This document shows, piece by piece, positions 9,123 through 61,458 of a stretch of 64,000 bases of DNA. Location of the stretch: the NCBI GenBank assembly GCA_016793245.1, contig JAEUHW010000353.1, positions 1 to 64,000 of the forward strand, in the 5' to 3' direction. Below the pieces are notes generated by a model. It saw nothing but the letters and a program-made list of their open reading frames with translations. It did no database searches and had not been told where the DNA came from. A program made the position numbers and the translations under genes. Every line of letters begins with the position of its first letter. Position 1 is the stretch's first letter. The stretch comes from Planctomycetota bacterium (GTDB taxonomy: Bacteria; Planctomycetota; UBA1135; JADKAF01).

Positions 9123-9262
9123 CTCAGAGAGTGAGCAAGAATTGCTCACGAACGGGCTGCAGCGCTGTCAGGCGCTGCGCCAGCAGGCATCGCTGCAGCG
9201 CTGTCAGGCGCTGCGCCAAGAAACAGCAGAGGCTGTAGCATCGATTTCGGCTCAGCCTCTCA
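9123..9262 (-). repeat. Modular stop-codon hairpin repeat, copy A
   Basis: Read on the minus strand this element begins in the kinase stop codon (TGAGAGGCTGAG) and ends in ACTCTCTGAG. It contains a leading hairpin (GAGGCTG with CAGCCTC), two TGAC-loop hairpins (stem GCAGCGC/GCGCTGC) exactly 36 bp apart, and a closing hairpin GTGAGCAA-TTC-TTGCTCAC. The same modules recur at 22249, 44412, 50334 and 61282, and a variant at 30408. Confidence 0.85.
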
Positions 9263-21657: not shown

Positions 21658-22251
21658 GTGGTGACGTCCGTCGAAGACTCCTCGGGAACGGCGCGCGAGG
21701 CGCCTAGGGTAGCGGCCGGCGGCGCGCCGAGCACGGCCCTGTCGTCCGAGCCCGAGCGCGCGCGCGGTCGCATCGTGCTCGGAGAAGGCGGGCTCTGGAG
21801 CTTCCTCGGCCCCTTGGCGTGGATCGTGGCCGGTCTCCTGCTCGGCGATCTCTTCCCTCGCGGGCTCTCGTGGGGCGAGGGGCAGGATTGGTTGCCGCTG
21901 CTGCGCGCGACCTTCTTCCTGGTCGGCGCGAGCACGCTGCTGGTCGAGGCCGCGCACTTCGAGCGCTGGATCTTCGACCTCGACGCCCGTACGTTGACGT
22001 GGCGCCACGGCCTCATCGATCTCCGGCCGCGGACGGTCGCGTTCCAATCGTTGGACCGCGTGCGGATCGTCCTCGAGGAGCGCGGCCCCGAGGACTATCT
22101 CGTCGCCGTGCATGTGCGGCCCGAGGAAGAGTCGGTGGCGGAGGCGCTCTCGTGCGGGCGCGGCTTGCCCGAGGAAGCGCGAGAGCGCGCCGAGCGCATG
22201 CGGCGCTTGCTCGACGAAGTGCGGCGCCGCGCCGCGAGCGCCGCGCGCTGA
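21658..22251 (+). CDS. Membrane protein of unknown function
   Basis: About 197 residues with two predicted membrane helices (LWSFLGPLAWIVAGLLLGDL and LPLLRATFFLVGASTLLVEA), followed by a cytoplasmic-looking domain beginning FERWIFDLDARTLTWRHGL that resembles small PH-like or YcxB-like membrane-anchored domains. The start is a GTG-GTG pair at 21658/21661; the frame is open upstream but that sequence overlaps the divergent nudix gene. Its TGA is the first triplet of repeat copy B. Confidence 0.6.
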   Translation: MVTSVEDSSGTAREAPRVAAGGAPSTALSSEPERARGRIVLGEGGLWSFLGPLAWIVAGLLLGDLFPRGLSWGEGQDWLPLLRATFFLVGASTLLVEAAHFERWIFDLDARTLTWRHGLIDLRPRTVAFQSLDRVRIVLEERGPEDYLVAVHVRPEEESVAEALSCGRGLPEEARERAERMRRLLDEVRRRAASAAR

Positions 22252-22352
22252 GAGGCTGAGCAGAAATCGATGACACAGCCTCCTGTGATTCTTGGCGCAG
22301 CGCCTGACGGCGCTGCAGCCCGTTCGAGAGCACTTCTTGCTCACTCTCTGAG
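22249..22352 (+). repeat. Modular stop-codon hairpin repeat, copy B
   Basis: Begins in the stop codon (TGAGAGGCTGAGCAG) and ends at CTCTCTGAG. It is the shortest intact copy: one leading hairpin, one TGAC-loop hairpin (GCAGCGCC-TGAC-GGCGCTGC) and one weaker closing hairpin (GAGAGCACTTCTTGCTCAC). Confidence 0.85.
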
Positions 22353-28918: not shown

Positions 28919-30365
28919 CGCGCGCGTCGAGCCACGCGCGGCGCGCGTGAGCGGGACCGGCGCGAAGACCGCCGGCCTCCTCGCGCTCGTCGCGATTTTG
29001 TTCGCCGCGTGCGTGCGCTTCTCGGATCTCGGCAACTACAGCCTCTGGATCGACGAGGCGTTCAGCATCTCCGACGCGACGAGCCGCCTCGAGGTCGAAG
29101 GCGAGTCCGCGATCGAGAACCCGATCTCCTACCACGTCGTGCGCTGGGGGATCGATCTCTTCGGGCGCGACGAGTGGGGCGCGCGTTTCCTGCCGTGCGC
29201 GATCGGCGTGCTCTCGGTCGGCGTGTTCTGCGCCTGGCTCGCGTGTCGGCTCGGAGTGTTCGCGGCGCTCTGCGGCAGCGTGCTGCTCACGATCTCGCCC
29301 TGGCATCACTTCCTGAGCCAGAGCGTCCGCTATTACACGCTGAACCTCCTCGTCTGCTTGTTGGCGGGGATCGCCTTCGAGGCTTGGCTCCGCACACGTC
29401 GCGCCTGGCCGGCGTTGCTCTCCTTGGCGTTGATCGCCCTCGGGAGCCAGGTCCACGCCTCGAGCTTGCTCTTCGTCGCCGGGTTAGGCTTCGCCGTCGC
29501 GCTCCAGCTCTGCTTCGTCCCGCGAACGAGCTCCGCGAGATTCTGGCGCTCGCCGCTGACCTGGGTTGCGGCCGCCGCGCTGCTGGGCATCGCGTGGATC
29601 GCCTATCAGGACGCCGCTTGGTATCTGGAGCAGAAGGGGCGTTTCTCGACGCCGGTCTACCTCGGCAACCTCGCCTTCTACGGCGGACCGGTGCTGTGGA
29701 TCGCGATCTGCTTCGCGGCCTGGCGCGCGCTCCGCGTGCGCGAGCCGTTCCCTCTCTTCCTCGTCGGCGTGGCGAGCGGCACGCTGCTCTGCGGAGGCGC
29801 GCTCTCGCTGCTCGTGACGGTCAATCACCAATACGTCGTGAGCGCGCTGCCGTTCTTGATCGCGGCCCTCGCGTGGCTCGGCGCGGCGACGTGGAAGGCG
29901 GGCGCGCGCGGCGCGGCCCTGGCGCTCGTGGCGCTGCCCGCGGCCGAAGGGCTGGCCATGCAAGCGCTCTATCGCACGTCCTTTGGCGGCTTCCGCGCCG
30001 AATGGCGCTCCGCCGCGGCGATGCTGCTCGAAGAGCTCGAGCCCGGCGACATGGTGGCCTCGAATCGAGCCACCATCCTCGAGCACTACCTGGCGCCCAA
30101 CGCGACGAACCTCCGCGACCCGCGCCGCGTGCTGCTCCTCGGGCACTTCAACCACGAGCTCTTGCTCGAGCTCATGCAGCATCCCGGTCGCGTCTGGTAC
30201 TTGGTCGGGGAAGACGGCTCCGCGACGTGGGACGCCGTCGATCGCGAGAGCTTCGAGTGGCACGTGCGCACGCGTTGCCGGCATTTCGCCTCGTTCCCCC
30301 GGCGCATCGGAACGAAAGAGCTCGGCATCGAGATCTGGCTGCAGGAGCCGCGCGGGTCGCGCTGA
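28890..30365 (+). CDS. Polytopic GT-C type glycosyltransferase
   Basis: Integral membrane protein of about 491 residues with some ten hydrophobic segments. The first loop contains LGNYSLWIDEAFSISDA, the acidic DE motif expected in GT-C (GT39/ArnT-like) enzymes that transfer sugars from lipid-linked donors outside the inner membrane. A soluble C-terminal part begins around FRAEWRSAAAMLLEEL. GTG 28890 overlaps the LOG gene by 29 bp; GTG 28947 is an alternative. Neither has a clear ribosome site. Acceptor and donor unknown; envelope glycolipid or protein glycosylation is the general expectation. Confidence 0.72.
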   Translation: MSSNASPKIDARVEPRAARVSGTGAKTAGLLALVAILFAACVRFSDLGNYSLWIDEAFSISDATSRLEVEGESAIENPISYHVVRWGIDLFGRDEWGARFLPCAIGVLSVGVFCAWLACRLGVFAALCGSVLLTISPWHHFLSQSVRYYTLNLLVCLLAGIAFEAWLRTRRAWPALLSLALIALGSQVHASSLLFVAGLGFAVALQLCFVPRTSSARFWRSPLTWVAAAALLGIAWIAYQDAAWYLEQKGRFSTPVYLGNLAFYGGPVLWIAICFAAWRALRVREPFPLFLVGVASGTLLCGGALSLLVTVNHQYVVSALPFLIAALAWLGAATWKAGARGAALALVALPAAEGLAMQALYRTSFGGFRAEWRSAAAMLLEELEPGDMVASNRATILEHYLAPNATNLRDPRRVLLLGHFNHELLLELMQHPGRVWYLVGEDGSATWDAVDRESFEWHVRTRCRHFASFPRRIGTKELGIEIWLQEPRGSR

Positions 30366-30407
30366 GCGCCCTGCCGCTGCACGGCGCTCTCCATCGCGGC
30401 GCCGTCT

Positions 30408-30594
30408 CGCGTCTCAACGGCGTCAGCCGTTGAACCAGCCACACGCGTCTCAACGGCGTCCGCCGTCGAACCAGCCACACGCGTCTCAACGGCGTCAGCC
30501 GTTGAACCAGCAAACACGCGTCTCAACGGCGTCAGCCGTTGAACCAGCAAACACGCGTCTCAACGGCGTCAGCCGTTGAACCAGCAGGCATCCG
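30408..30594 (-). repeat. Five-unit 36/37-bp hairpin array downstream of efp
   Basis: Five tandem units start at 30408, 30444, 30480, 30517 and 30554. On the minus strand each reads GCTGGTTCAACGGCTGACGC and continues CGTTGAGACGCG, folding as CAACGGC-TGAC-GCCGTTG. The last unit begins GGATGCCTGCTGG, identical to the linker of the repeat at 50334, so the array belongs to the same family with a different stem sequence. It lies immediately after the efp stop codon and in its sense direction. There are no spacers, so it is not CRISPR. Confidence 0.85.
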
Positions 30595-30597
30595 AGC

Positions 30598-31161
30598 TCA
30601 GTTCGCGCGGCCGAGGAACTCGCCGGTCTCGGTCGAGACCTTGACCTTCTCGCCGACCCCGATGTGCAGCGGGACCTTCAGCTCGAGCCCCGTGTCGGTC
30701 TTCGCGTTCTTGGTGAGATTCGTCACCGAGTTGCCCTTCACGGCGGCCTCGGCCTCGGCGATCTCCAGCACCACGCTGGAGGGCAGCTCGACGGTGACCG
30801 GGCGCTCTTCGAAGAAGGTCACGATGACGCTCTCGTTCTCCTTGATGAAGACCATCTGCTCTCCGACCATCTCGCGCTGCAGCGTGAACTGGTCGAAGTT
30901 CGTCTGGTCCATGAACACGTAGCCGTCGCCGTCCGAATAGAGGTACTCGCAGTTCTTCTTCTCGAGGTAGGCGGGCTCGACCGTCTCGCTGCTGCCCATG
31001 CGCATCTGGCGCTGGGATCCCGTACGGAGGTTCCGCAGGTAGATCTGATTGATGGCGCGCCAGTTCCCCGGCGTGATGTGGTCGTAGCGCGTGACCACCC
31101 ACAGTTCTCCGTCCTGCTGCAAGACCATGCCCTTGCGGACTTCCGTCACCTTGATGGACAC
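30598..31161 (-). CDS. efp: Elongation factor P
   Basis: A 187-residue EF-P that binds between the P and E sites of the ribosome and rescues stalling at consecutive prolines. All three domains are present, ending in LHIGVGEKVKVSTETGEFLG. The domain I loop reads HITPGNWRAINQIYLRNL; aligned to the E. coli loop FVKPGKGQAFARVKLRRL, the modified Lys34 is Asn and the next Gly is Trp. The usual lysine or arginine modification is therefore impossible at that position, so this protein must act unmodified or by a different modification. The EfpL/YeiP branch was considered but domain spacing fits EF-P. A hairpin array follows the stop codon. Confidence 0.88.
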   Translation of the reverse strand: MSIKVTEVRKGMVLQQDGELWVVTRYDHITPGNWRAINQIYLRNLRTGSQRQMRMGSSETVEPAYLEKKNCEYLYSDGDGYVFMDQTNFDQFTLQREMVGEQMVFIKENESVIVTFFEERPVTVELPSSVVLEIAEAEAAVKGNSVTNLTKNAKTDTGLELKVPLHIGVGEKVKVSTETGEFLGRAN

Positions 31162-44414: not shown

Positions 44415-44520
44415 GAGCGCAGAGGTCGAGCCGCGGCCCAGCTGCGGTCTGGGAGCTGAGTTCGGGCACATCGCCTGACGGCGCTGTCGCGTGTCCGCGA
44501 GCGATGCTCGCTGGGGTTCT
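44412..44520 (+). repeat. Decayed modular stop-codon repeat, copy E
   Basis: Right after the stop codon TGAGAGCGCAGAGGTCGA keeps the look of the family's start. A TGAC-loop hairpin (CATCGCCTGACGGCGCTG) and a closing hairpin (GCGAGC-GAT-GCTCGC) follow at 44471-44513 in the correct order. Other modules are unrecognisable. Confidence 0.55.
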
Positions 44521-49061: not shown

Positions 49062-50336
49062 TTGCAACCTCTCGAAGCCCTGCGCGAGCAGGACCCCGAA
49101 CTCTTCGCCTCGATCGCCGGCGAGCTCCAGCGCCAGGAGACCCAGCTCGAGCTGATCGCCTCGGAGAACCACACCAGCCTCGCGGTGATGGGGGCTCAGG
49201 GCTCGGTCCTGACCAACAAGTACGCCGAGGGCTATCCGGGGAAGCGCTACTACGGCGGCTGCGAGTTCGTGGACAAGGCCGAGGAGCTGGCGAAGGCCCG
49301 CGTGATCGCGCTCTTCGGCGGCGAACGCGCGAACGTCCAACCGCATTCGGGCACGCAAGCGAACATGGCCGCCTTGATGGCGCTCGCCGAGCCGCATTCG
49401 CGCGTGCTGGCGATGAGCCTCGACCACGGCGGGCACCTCTCGCACGGTCACCCGAAGAACTTCAGCGGCCTGCTCTACGAGTTCCATCACTTCGGTGTCG
49501 AGCCCGAGACGGAGCGCATCGATCCCGCGCGCGTCGCGGCGATGGCGCGCGAGCTGAAGCCGGCGGTGCTGCTGATCGGCGCCAGCGCTTATCCCCGCAC
49601 GCTCGACTTCCCGCGCTTCGCGGAGATCGCGGCCGAGGTCGGGGCGAAGCTGATGGTCGACATGGCGCACATCGCGGGGCTCGTCGCCGCCGGTGTGCAC
49701 CCGAGCCCGGTGCCGCATTCCGACATCGTGACCTTCACGACGCACAAGACGCTCCGCGGTCCGCGCGGTGGGGCGATCCTCTGCCGCAAGGAGCACTTCC
49801 CGCTCGTGCAGTCGCGCGTCTTCCCGGGGACGCAGGGCGGGCCGCTCATGCACGTCATCGCGGCGAAGGCCGCGGCCTTCGGCGAAGCGCTGCAGCCTTC
49901 GTTCCGCACCTACCAGCAGCAGGTCGTCACGAACGCGCGAGCTCTCTCCGAAGAGCTCCAAGCCGGCGGACTCCGCATCGTCTCGGGCGGCACCGACACG
50001 CATCTCATGCTCGTCGATCTGCGCTCGCTCGGCATCACCGGCAGCGAGGGCGAGGATGCGCTGCACCACGTCGGGATCACCGTGAACAAGAACCTGATCC
50101 CCTTCGATCCGCAGCCGGCGACGAAGGCCTCCGGCGTGCGCATCGGCACACCGGCGATCACGACGCGCGGATTGCGCGAGCCCGAAGTGCGACGCCTCGG
50201 CGCGTTGATCGTGCGCGCGTTGAAGGGGCGCGGAGATGCCTCCGAGGTCGCGCGCGTCGGAGCGGAGGTCCTCGAGCTCTGTCGCGCCTTCCCCGTGTAT
50301 CCGTCGCTGCAGCAGAGCTACGGCTTGCGCGACTGA
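49062..50336 (+). CDS. glyA: Serine hydroxymethyltransferase
   Basis: PLP enzyme of 424 residues converting serine and tetrahydrofolate to glycine and methylene-tetrahydrofolate. Motifs: [47 protein letters not shown], and the PLP lysine in [14 protein letters not shown]. Length is typical. The TTG at 49062 is chosen because GGAG sits 7 bases before it and the protein then begins exactly where family members do; the frame is open far upstream but that is non-coding. Its stop codon is the first triplet of repeat copy C. Confidence 0.94.
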
Positions 50337-50585
50337 GAGGCTGTGCAGGACTCGATGGTACAGCCTCTCAGATGCCTGCTGGCGCATCGCCTGACGGCGC
50401 TGCGACGCGGAGGCTGTGCAGAACTCGATGGTACAGCCTCTCAGATGTCTGCTGGCGCATCGCCTGACGGCGCTGCGAAGCGGAGGCTGTGCAGAACTCG
50501 ATTGTACAGCCTCTCAGATGCCTGCTGGCGCATCGCCTGACGGCGCTGCAGTCCGTTCGCGAGCAATTCTTGCTCGCGCTCTGAG
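50334..50585 (+). repeat. Modular stop-codon hairpin repeat, copy C, expanded
   Basis: Starts in the glyA stop codon and ends at CTCTGAG. A 73-bp unit carrying the leading hairpin (GAGAGGCTGT with ACAGCCTCTC, 10 bp) and one TGAC-loop hairpin is repeated three times (units begin at 50337, 50410, 50483), followed by a single closing hairpin GCGAGCAA-TTC-TTGCTCGC. It is the longest copy and shows how the family grows by internal duplication. The 130 bp beyond it hold no gene. Confidence 0.88.
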
Positions 50586-59851: not shown

Positions 59852-61291
59852 ATGAACGCGAGCGGAGGCTGGAGCGGAGGCTGGTCGCGTCGCCCTGCGG
59901 CCGGGCGCGCGAACGACGATGGCGTGGAGTCGGTCTCCCAGCTCACCGGACGACTGCGCCACGATCTCGCGCAGCGCTTCGCGCACGTCGGCGTGCGCGG
60001 CGAGATCGGCGAGTGGACCCGCGCGGCGTCCGGACACGTCTATCTCTCGCTGAAGGACGCGACGGCGCGGCTCTCCGCGGTGATCTGGCGTTCGGCGGCG
60101 GCGCGACTCGCACCTCGCGATCTCGCCGTGGGCAGCGAGGTCATCGCGCACGGTCGCATCGACGTCTACGCGCCGCGCGGCACCTATGCGCTGCAGATCG
60201 AGCGCCTCGCCGTCGCGGGGCGCGGCGATCTGCACGCGCGCTTCGAGCAGCTGAAGGCGACCTTGCGCGCGCGCGGCTGGTTCGATCCGGAGCGCAAGCG
60301 CGCGCTGCCGCGCATCCCGCGCGCGATCGGCGTCGTGACCTCGCCGGGCGGCGCGGCGTTGCACGACTTCTTGGAGACCTTGCTCGGGCGCTTCCCCTCG
60401 GTCGCCGTCGCGATCCAACCGGCGCGGGTGCAGGGCGAAGGCGCGGCGGCGGAGATCGCCGAAGCCGTGCGCGCCCTCGATCGCCGCGGTGGCTTCGATG
60501 TGATCGTGGTCACGCGCGGCGGCGGCAGCCTCGAGGACCTCTGGGCCTTCAACGAGGAAGTCGTCGCGCGGGCGATCTTCGAATGCTCGGTGCCGGTCGT
60601 GAGCGGCGTCGGGCACGAGACCGACATCACCATCGCCGATCTGGTCGCCGACGTGCGGGCGAAGACGCCGACCGAAGCCGCCGTGCTCGTCGCTCCGCGT
60701 CGCGCGGATCTGCTCGCCGAGTTGGAGCGCTTGCACACGCGCGCGCTGCGAGCCGTTCGCCAGCGGCTGGAACGCGCGCAGCGCGAAGTCGAAGCACTCG
60801 CGGCAGGTCGCGCGCTCGGAAGACCGGAGCTCGAGATCGAGCGCTGGCGCCGCGAGCTCTCGATGCTCGCGGTGCGCGGTGCGCGCGCGATGCGAGCGCG
60901 CGTCGCGCGCGGCGCGCAGGAGACCGCGGCGCTCGAACAGCGCTTGCGCGCCGCCGCGCCGCGCCGTCGGCTCGACGACGATGCGCAGCGCCTCGCGGAG
61001 GGCGAACGGCGCCTGCAGCGCGCGATCCGCTCGCGCTGCGCGCGCGCCGAAGAGGACCTCGCGAGGATCGCGGGGCTCTTGGAGGCGCATTCGCCGGTGC
61101 AGATCCTCGCGCGGGGGTTCTCCGTCGCGGTTCGCGCGGGCGAGCGGCAACCGCTAACATCCGCCGCCGGGCTCGCGGTCGGGGAGCTGCTGGAGACGGC
61201 GTTCCTCGATGGTCGCGCGCTGAGTCGCATCGAGAAGCTCGAGCGACAGGATTCGCTCGCGGGCGATCCGGGATCGTCGCCGAGAGGCTGA
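59852..61291 (+). CDS. xseA: Exodeoxyribonuclease VII large subunit
   Basis: The catalytic subunit of exonuclease VII, which degrades single-stranded DNA from both ends. The OB-fold N-terminus has VSQLTGRLRHDL, GEIGEWTRAASGHVYLSLKD; the catalytic core has RAIGVVTSPGGAALHDFLET, VVTRGGGSLEDLWAFNEE and SGVGHETDITIADLVAD, followed by a long coiled coil typical of XseA. 479 residues, as expected. The ATG at 59852 gives about 25 extra Gly/Ala/Arg-rich residues. The stop codon lies inside repeat copy D, which contributes the last codons. Confidence 0.93.
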   Translation: MNASGGWSGGWSRRPAAGRANDDGVESVSQLTGRLRHDLAQRFAHVGVRGEIGEWTRAASGHVYLSLKDATARLSAVIWRSAAARLAPRDLAVGSEVIAHGRIDVYAPRGTYALQIERLAVAGRGDLHARFEQLKATLRARGWFDPERKRALPRIPRAIGVVTSPGGAALHDFLETLLGRFPSVAVAIQPARVQGEGAAAEIAEAVRALDRRGGFDVIVVTRGGGSLEDLWAFNEEVVARAIFECSVPVVSGVGHETDITIADLVADVRAKTPTEAAVLVAPRRADLLAELERLHTRALRAVRQRLERAQREVEALAAGRALGRPELEIERWRRELSMLAVRGARAMRARVARGAQETAALEQRLRAAAPRRRLDDDAQRLAEGERRLQRAIRSRCARAEEDLARIAGLLEAHSPVQILARGFSVAVRAGERQPLTSAAGLAVGELLETAFLDGRALSRIEKLERQDSLAGDPGSSPRG

Positions 61292-61458
61292 GCAGAGATC
61301 GATGCTTCAGCCTCTCGGATTCTTGTTGGCGCAGCGCCTGACGGCGCTGCGGAGATGCTTGTTGGTGCAGCGCCTGACGGCGCTGCAGGGATGCTTGTTG
61401 GCGCAGCGCCTGACGGCGCTGCTGCCCGTTCGTGAGCAGTGCTTGCTCACTCTCTGAG
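61282..61458 (+). repeat. Modular stop-codon hairpin repeat, copy D
   Basis: Begins GAGAGGCTGAGCAGAG, its TGA being the xseA stop codon, and ends at CTCTCTGAG. It has a leading hairpin (GAGAGGCTGA with TCAGCCTCTC), three TGAC-loop hairpins at exactly 36-bp spacing (61331, 61367, 61403) and a closing hairpin GTGAGCA/TGCTCAC. It separates xseA from xseB within an apparent operon, so it cannot be a complete terminator unless xseB has its own promoter. Confidence 0.87.

Follow-up and report, generated by a model that had tools for sequence, protein, structure and literature searches.

A five-unit hairpin array behind efp and a candidate family of single-strand mobile elements at stop codons in a planctomycete genome

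Results

The five hairpin units that follow efp probably arose by amplification of the core of a non-autonomous mobile element, now degenerate, of the IS200/IS605 or REP type, which inserted at the CTGA of the efp stop; such an element would have been moved by a Y1 transposase with a target that keeps the stop codon. We also lean, though only slightly, towards a wider reading in which the array belongs to a single-strand mobile element family that targets a tetramer made of C and the stop codon behind it (C-TGA or C-TAG). The stop would then serve as a safe harbour, with insertion flush with the gene end and the protein intact, and the family would comprise three sub-lineages with two targets and one core hairpin that can be amplified into arrays. 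We infer mobility from sequence alone, namely from fixed ends, tetramers, nested insertions and copies carrying a transposase. The window, i.e., the whole analysed stretch of 64,000 nucleotides, comes from a fragmented assembly of 7.57 Mb in 458 contigs, 89.6% complete.

Layout of the array behind efp

The array sits between efp, located on the minus strand, and a convergent gene ending at position 30365, with a gap of 17 nt from the efp stop codon (Table 1). Tandem Repeats Finder reported a repeat at 30408-30586 with a period of 37, 4.9 copies and 95% matches. The stem-loop TTCAACGGCTGACGCCGTTGA was found on the minus strand at 30414, 30450, 30486, 30523 and 30560, one copy having two mismatches; no match occurred in 100 shuffles of the window. 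The repeat finder, the motif scan and the shuffles all bear out the preliminary description of five minus-strand units next to efp with a period of 36-37, the actual spacings being 36, 36, 37 and 37. The unit reads GCTGG-TTCAACGGC-TGAC-GCCGTTGAG, units are connected by the joiner ACGCGTGTTT or ACGCGTGTG, and the stem comprises 9 bp with the outer pairs T-G and T-A included. Two substitutions had been assigned to the stem of the unit at 30444-30479, our unit 4. Two changes are indeed present, but only one of them is in the stem, where a G-T pair is retained, and the other is in the loop. The linker described beside efp was found as GATGCCTGCTGG, and the leading and closing modules are both missing, as had been noted; for the class A left end the best edit distance at the array was 13, random masked windows giving mostly 11-12. 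The closest relatives of efp in the contig search were distant, with 56-60% identity; judged by them only, the host probably belongs to Planctomycetota. No empty site was seen among these genomes, all of which lie outside the genus and family of the host.

Table 1. Positions of the efp array and of related elements in the window.
Feature	Position	Strand
Tandem array of five units with class A stems, behind efp	30408..30594	-
Hairpin unit 1, efp-proximal, TTCAACGGC-TGAC-GCCGTTGAG	30559..30580	-
Hairpin unit 2 of efp array	30522..30543	-
Hairpin unit 3 of efp array	30485..30506	-
Hairpin unit 4 of efp array, variant, TTCGACGGC-GGAC-GCCGTTGAG	30449..30470	-
Hairpin unit 5 of efp array	30413..30434	-
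Linker GATGCCTGCTGG, common to class B and C elements	30581..30592	-
CTGA, C + efp stop codon; presumed insertion tetramer (from family pattern)	30598..30601	-
efp (elongation factor P), gene that hosts the array	30598..31161	-
Complete class B element: stop TGA, left, core and right hairpins, CTCTCTGA	22249..22351	+
Class B element, left hairpin and core both in three copies, single right end	50334..50584	+
Class B element with mutated left tetramer (CCGA), three core hairpins	61281..61457	+
Class B element, two core hairpins, both ends	9124..9262	-
Core hairpin, degenerate class B copy	44467..44488	+

The hairpin family in the genome

The 21-mer of the efp-array hairpin has 75 near copies genome-wide at up to two mismatches, with none for the reversed control, and the other stem present in the window has 87 matches in the genome. 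In 806 kb of long contigs, hairpins with a 9-bp stem and a 4-nt loop most often had CTGG as the foot and TGAC as the loop (28; runner-up 12), a pair combined with the stems CAACGGC, CAGCGCC or CATCGCC, and CAACACC or CAGCACC. The family survey covered 1.69 Mb of the genome, much of it picked for hairpin or transposase matches, and yielded 196 hairpins at 109 loci, with the foot mostly GCTGG, a 9-bp stem and the loop mostly TGAC. They were sorted into three stem classes: A with CAACGGC (the efp array), B with CAGCGCC (the other copies in the window) and C with CAACACC. A covariance model of the unit matched the genome at least 139 times, scoring having been limited to 150 candidates. Stems of the family, which were chosen for diversity, covary with a score reached by none of 500 shuffles. 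Rfam returned only a tRNA for the window, the hairpins having no match at gathering score.

The efp array had been described as the same family with a different stem. The common GCTGG foot, 9-bp stem, TGAC loop and 12-mer linker agree with this, as does the covariation, and the sequences thus support placing the array in one family with the class B copies of the window. Its membership rests on hairpin and linker, because the array has neither end.

Architecture of the elements

Alignment of the loci on the hairpin placed the hairpins as cores of elements of 104-126 bp with fixed ends, having a left and a right hairpin in addition. Elements with a single core hairpin cluster in length at 105 bp in class B, 104-105 bp in class C and 126 bp in class A. 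Class B consists of CTGA followed by GAGGCTGAGCAGAAATCGATGATACAGCCTCTCAGATGYYTGCTGG-hairpin-GCCCGTTCGTGAGCAATTCTTGCTCACTCTCTGA; class C, in the direction of the host gene, of CTGA followed by GAGCTTGTCGATNAATCGACAAGCTCGTGC-inverted hairpin-CCAGCAGTCACCGAAGAGCCTGTCGGAGACATTCTCCGACAGGCTCTGA; and class A of CTAG followed by CGGGGCTTCGCCCCAGCCCCGCTAGCATGTTGGCTGG-hairpins-GCACGAGTCCTTGGGCGGGAAACTCGACTCAAGTACAACGACTTTCGCGGCCCAAGGACTCTAG. The same tetramer bounds both ends, CTGA in classes B and C and CTAG in class A. On the left it was present in 39/44 class B, 15/16 class C and 17/23 class A copies, and on the right in 24/32, 13/15 and 10/16, respectively. The left and right end hairpins of all three classes fold as single-stranded DNA with z from -2.9 to -8.6. 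Two nested insertions were found: in C317 a class B element sits at the right CTGA of a class C copy, and in C405 a class A element sits at the right CTAG of another copy. We read the elements as IS200/IS605-like and non-autonomous, with a target coinciding with stop codons.

Two further observations concern individual copies. At 61270-61300 of the window, where the tetramer is CCGA, the host frame apparently enters the element and ends at an internal TGA. At four loci (L041, L091, L098 and L206, on C109, C181, C395 and C163) class A hairpins are located inside a different element with the long outer inverted repeat ACCGAACGTACGGTGCCAGAGCA / TGCTCTGGCACCGTACGTTCGGT.

In arrays elsewhere in the genome the linker between units repeats the flank specific for the locus, i.e., TGATAGCTGGG including stop-codon bases in C198, GAAATGCTGGG in C32 and AGCATGTTGGCTGG in C374. 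This points to duplication in place after insertion and supports the tandem growth of one module that had been proposed for efp. The linker GACGCGTGTTTGCTGG is common to the efp array and to an array on C31 beside a tRNA, so exchange between loci is also likely. The latter array (L085, C31:44433-44632) has six units of the same hairpin and directly follows the tRNA gene. The efp array combines class A stems with a linker of the class B and C type directly behind the CTGA stop of efp; a mosaic or eroded copy with a multiplied core would explain this most simply.

Placement at stop codons

The gene caller was trained on the sampled DNA, and its calls are approximate. At 47/48 loci class B has the same orientation as the upstream gene. 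Among recognisable left ends, the tetramer is formed by the stop of that gene and the C before it in 37/44 for class B and 11/16 for class C, and in only 9/23 is class A flush with a called stop. Sites were considered tolerated if they formed an in-register stop or lay entirely between genes, on either strand, with the elements masked; stops make up 43% of such sites for CTGA and 13% for CTAG. The excess of stop codons over tolerated sites has p of ~2e-8 for class B, 0.03 for class C and 0.001 for class A. Selection against insertions in promoters could yield a part of this excess, and true targeting of stop codons is therefore not proved. The copies at right-end tetramers in C317 and C405 suggest that the tetramer, and not translation, is needed.

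Elements of this layout are also present in two genomes from other genera of the order. Class A hairpins begin at a TAG stop at six loci of G056, and G092 has class B hairpins with CTGA ends. The near-complete G020, from the same order, has tandem arrays of the hairpin CCAACGGC-GCCA-GCCGTTGG with CTAG once per 56-bp unit (L273-L279, L155), and no Y1_Tnp match above cut-off was found in this genome.

Connection with Y1 transposases

The genome has 53 Y1_Tnp matches. Its main Y1 family is a protein of 247 aa with an HLH (HUH) motif, which scores above the cut-off of PF01797 and below that of the NCBIfam REP transposase model; the transposase profile matched no solved structure. A class A left end (edit distance ≤7) precedes 14 of the 48 testable transposase copies, seven such ends being flush with a called stop codon, and a class A right end (edit distance ≤5) follows 13 of 47. 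Six copies have both ends, 1.64-1.99 kb apart. At these limits masked controls gave 1/400 on the left and 0/400 on the right; a looser right-end threshold had been unspecific (85/150 control windows) and was tightened against the masked controls. This pairing suggests a single element in two forms, one being the short class A copies and the other the copies with a transposase. Since the gene of the 247-aa protein also has GTAG hairpins of its own, this protein is not proved to be the mover of class A, and its pairing with class A, given these GTAG-type REPs, may be composite. Ends of class B or C were not found together with any transposase. In G056, two RAYT genes had no class A ends within ~1 to 1.5 kb, and the element ends did not flank a Y1 gene of G092 (L284).

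In most descriptions RAYT genes have a low copy number. The RAYT-like transposase of 247 aa is present in about 50 copies (G000 C170, C9, C228, C367 and others; L031-L084). Several of the copies are arranged in tandem, many are located at the ends of contigs, and inverted hairpins tagged with GTAG (GTAGCATGAGTTTCGGAGCCC...) frame each of them; this gene looks IS-like. Two Y1 transposases of another type, 319 aa in length (L039 and L040, on C282 and C80), are flanked by the palindromes GGGGTCAGACCCC and AAGGTGCCAGGCACCTT.

Discussion

Alternative explanations

Were the linker coincidental, the efp array would be a simple tandem repeat unrelated to the other copies. The 12-mer is common in the GC-rich window when two mismatches are allowed (15 found, 7.8 expected), which would favour coincidence. 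In the 1.69 Mb, however, 19 of 23 exact copies of GATGCCTGCTGG have such a hairpin behind them, the corresponding share being 4.5% for GCTGG as a whole and 2.8% for a control pentamer, and the 75 near copies of the hairpin are spread over the genome. A coincidental linker in a separate family had been named as the finding that would overturn the relationship; after this count we regard it as extremely improbable, its sole escape being the bias of the sample towards hits. The hairpins could also be classical REPs, the cognates of the RAYT genes, with the arrays as BIMEs, and the 53 Y1_Tnp matches in the genome, with class A hairpins upstream of several of them, speak for this. Yet GCTGG stands at the foot in place of GTAG, and what is repeated is an element of three hairpins that ends in CTGA or CTAG. 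The hairpin was dropped as a candidate for the cognate REP because the RAYT genes have their own GTAG-tagged flanking hairpins, the link to them being the shared outer ends; the REP/BIME explanation as a whole is quite improbable.

An unlikely but somewhat better alternative is that the hairpins are 3'-UTR RNA elements under selection, e.g., a terminator, a barrier to RNase or a protein-binding site, alike because of gene conversion and not transposition. The nearly uniform sense of class B relative to the upstream gene would be expected of such elements, the stop codon lies within the stem of the class B and A left hairpins, and the RNA of the efp 3' region folds strongly (z = -3.85). A role of the array as terminator or stabiliser had been suggested along with a folding check. 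The strong fold is the outcome of that check, but the suggested role finds little support, as no terminator-like site and no T-tract behind the hairpins were detected in 30300-30700; the array may still stabilise the RNA. Class C has the conserved hairpin in the reverse orientation to its host gene, and this speaks against an RNA signal that depends on the strand. Identical end tetramers, nested insertions and copies carrying a transposase are unexpected of a regulatory RNA.

Proposed origin and significance

For a mobile element, events may have proceeded as follows. A Y1 single-strand transposase would recognise the hairpins and cut at the tetramer, and the element would insert 3' of CTGA or CTAG, with the target tetramer remaining on the left. 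A site made of C and a stop would then retain its stop codon with little harm, and copies would accumulate at the 3' ends of genes. At efp, a copy would have entered at the CTGA stop and later lost both ends, and its core may have grown into five units via slippage or unequal exchange. The array is probably without essential function, and it would add strong predicted hairpins to the efp 3' UTR.

If this is true, a target at the stop codon would give mobile elements a way of spreading without gene breakage and a route to high copy number in a gene-dense genome. It also calls for caution in such genomes before a hairpin directly behind a stop codon is taken for a terminator. One scheme may unite the orphan CnGA hairpins described from planctomycetes (PMC6006769), the REPs that supply stops (PMC3733652) and the PATEs (PMC3119063).

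Comparison with known systems

According to the sections of Quentin et al. (2018, PMC6006769) considered here, hairpins of class 3 TnpA-Y1 occur mainly in Planctomycetes and Acidobacteria, have the foot CnGA and reach high copy numbers, ~600 in Solibacter usitatus. The CTGA of classes B and C fits this foot, whereas the CTAG of class A does not, and a motif scan of the sampled loci for the class 3 protein (HUH NHVH, Y motif YV[VI]xEQ) found none. Placement at stop codons, CTAG ends and a third core hairpin are not described in those sections. The PATEs of Haloquadratum are, in the portion of PMC3119063 used here, short and transposase-free, with palindromes near the termini and no target duplication, and are related to IS605-type transposons via shared ends. 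Classes A, B and C resemble them in the subterminal hairpins at both ends, which the efp array itself lacks. As for IS200/IS605-type elements, in most copies a fixed tetramer flanks the left end and a matching one is present at the right. Class A ends also bound Y1-carrying copies, six of which have both, and no such partner was found for classes B and C. The same portion does not describe a core hairpin amplified in tandem or placement at stop codons for PATEs, and the transposase in the present genome is RAYT-like.

GTAG REPs, REPINs and BIMEs with their RAYTs share with the present family dispersed intergenic hairpins, tandem clusters and a Y1 transposase (PMC3733652, PMC2817692), and the ends of GTAG REPs often supply a TAG stop to flanking ORFs (PMC3733652). 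In those REPs the GTAG tag stands beside a single hairpin, whereas here CTGA or CTAG bounds a three-hairpin element. The hairpins of the family have GCTGG at the foot and lack a 5' GTAG (GT[AG]G), and the GTAG hairpins around the RAYT genes are separate. As judged from these sequences, the family is set apart from the known kinds by the tetramer CTGA or CTAG on both sides, a core hairpin in addition to the two at the ends, and a placement flush with stop codons.
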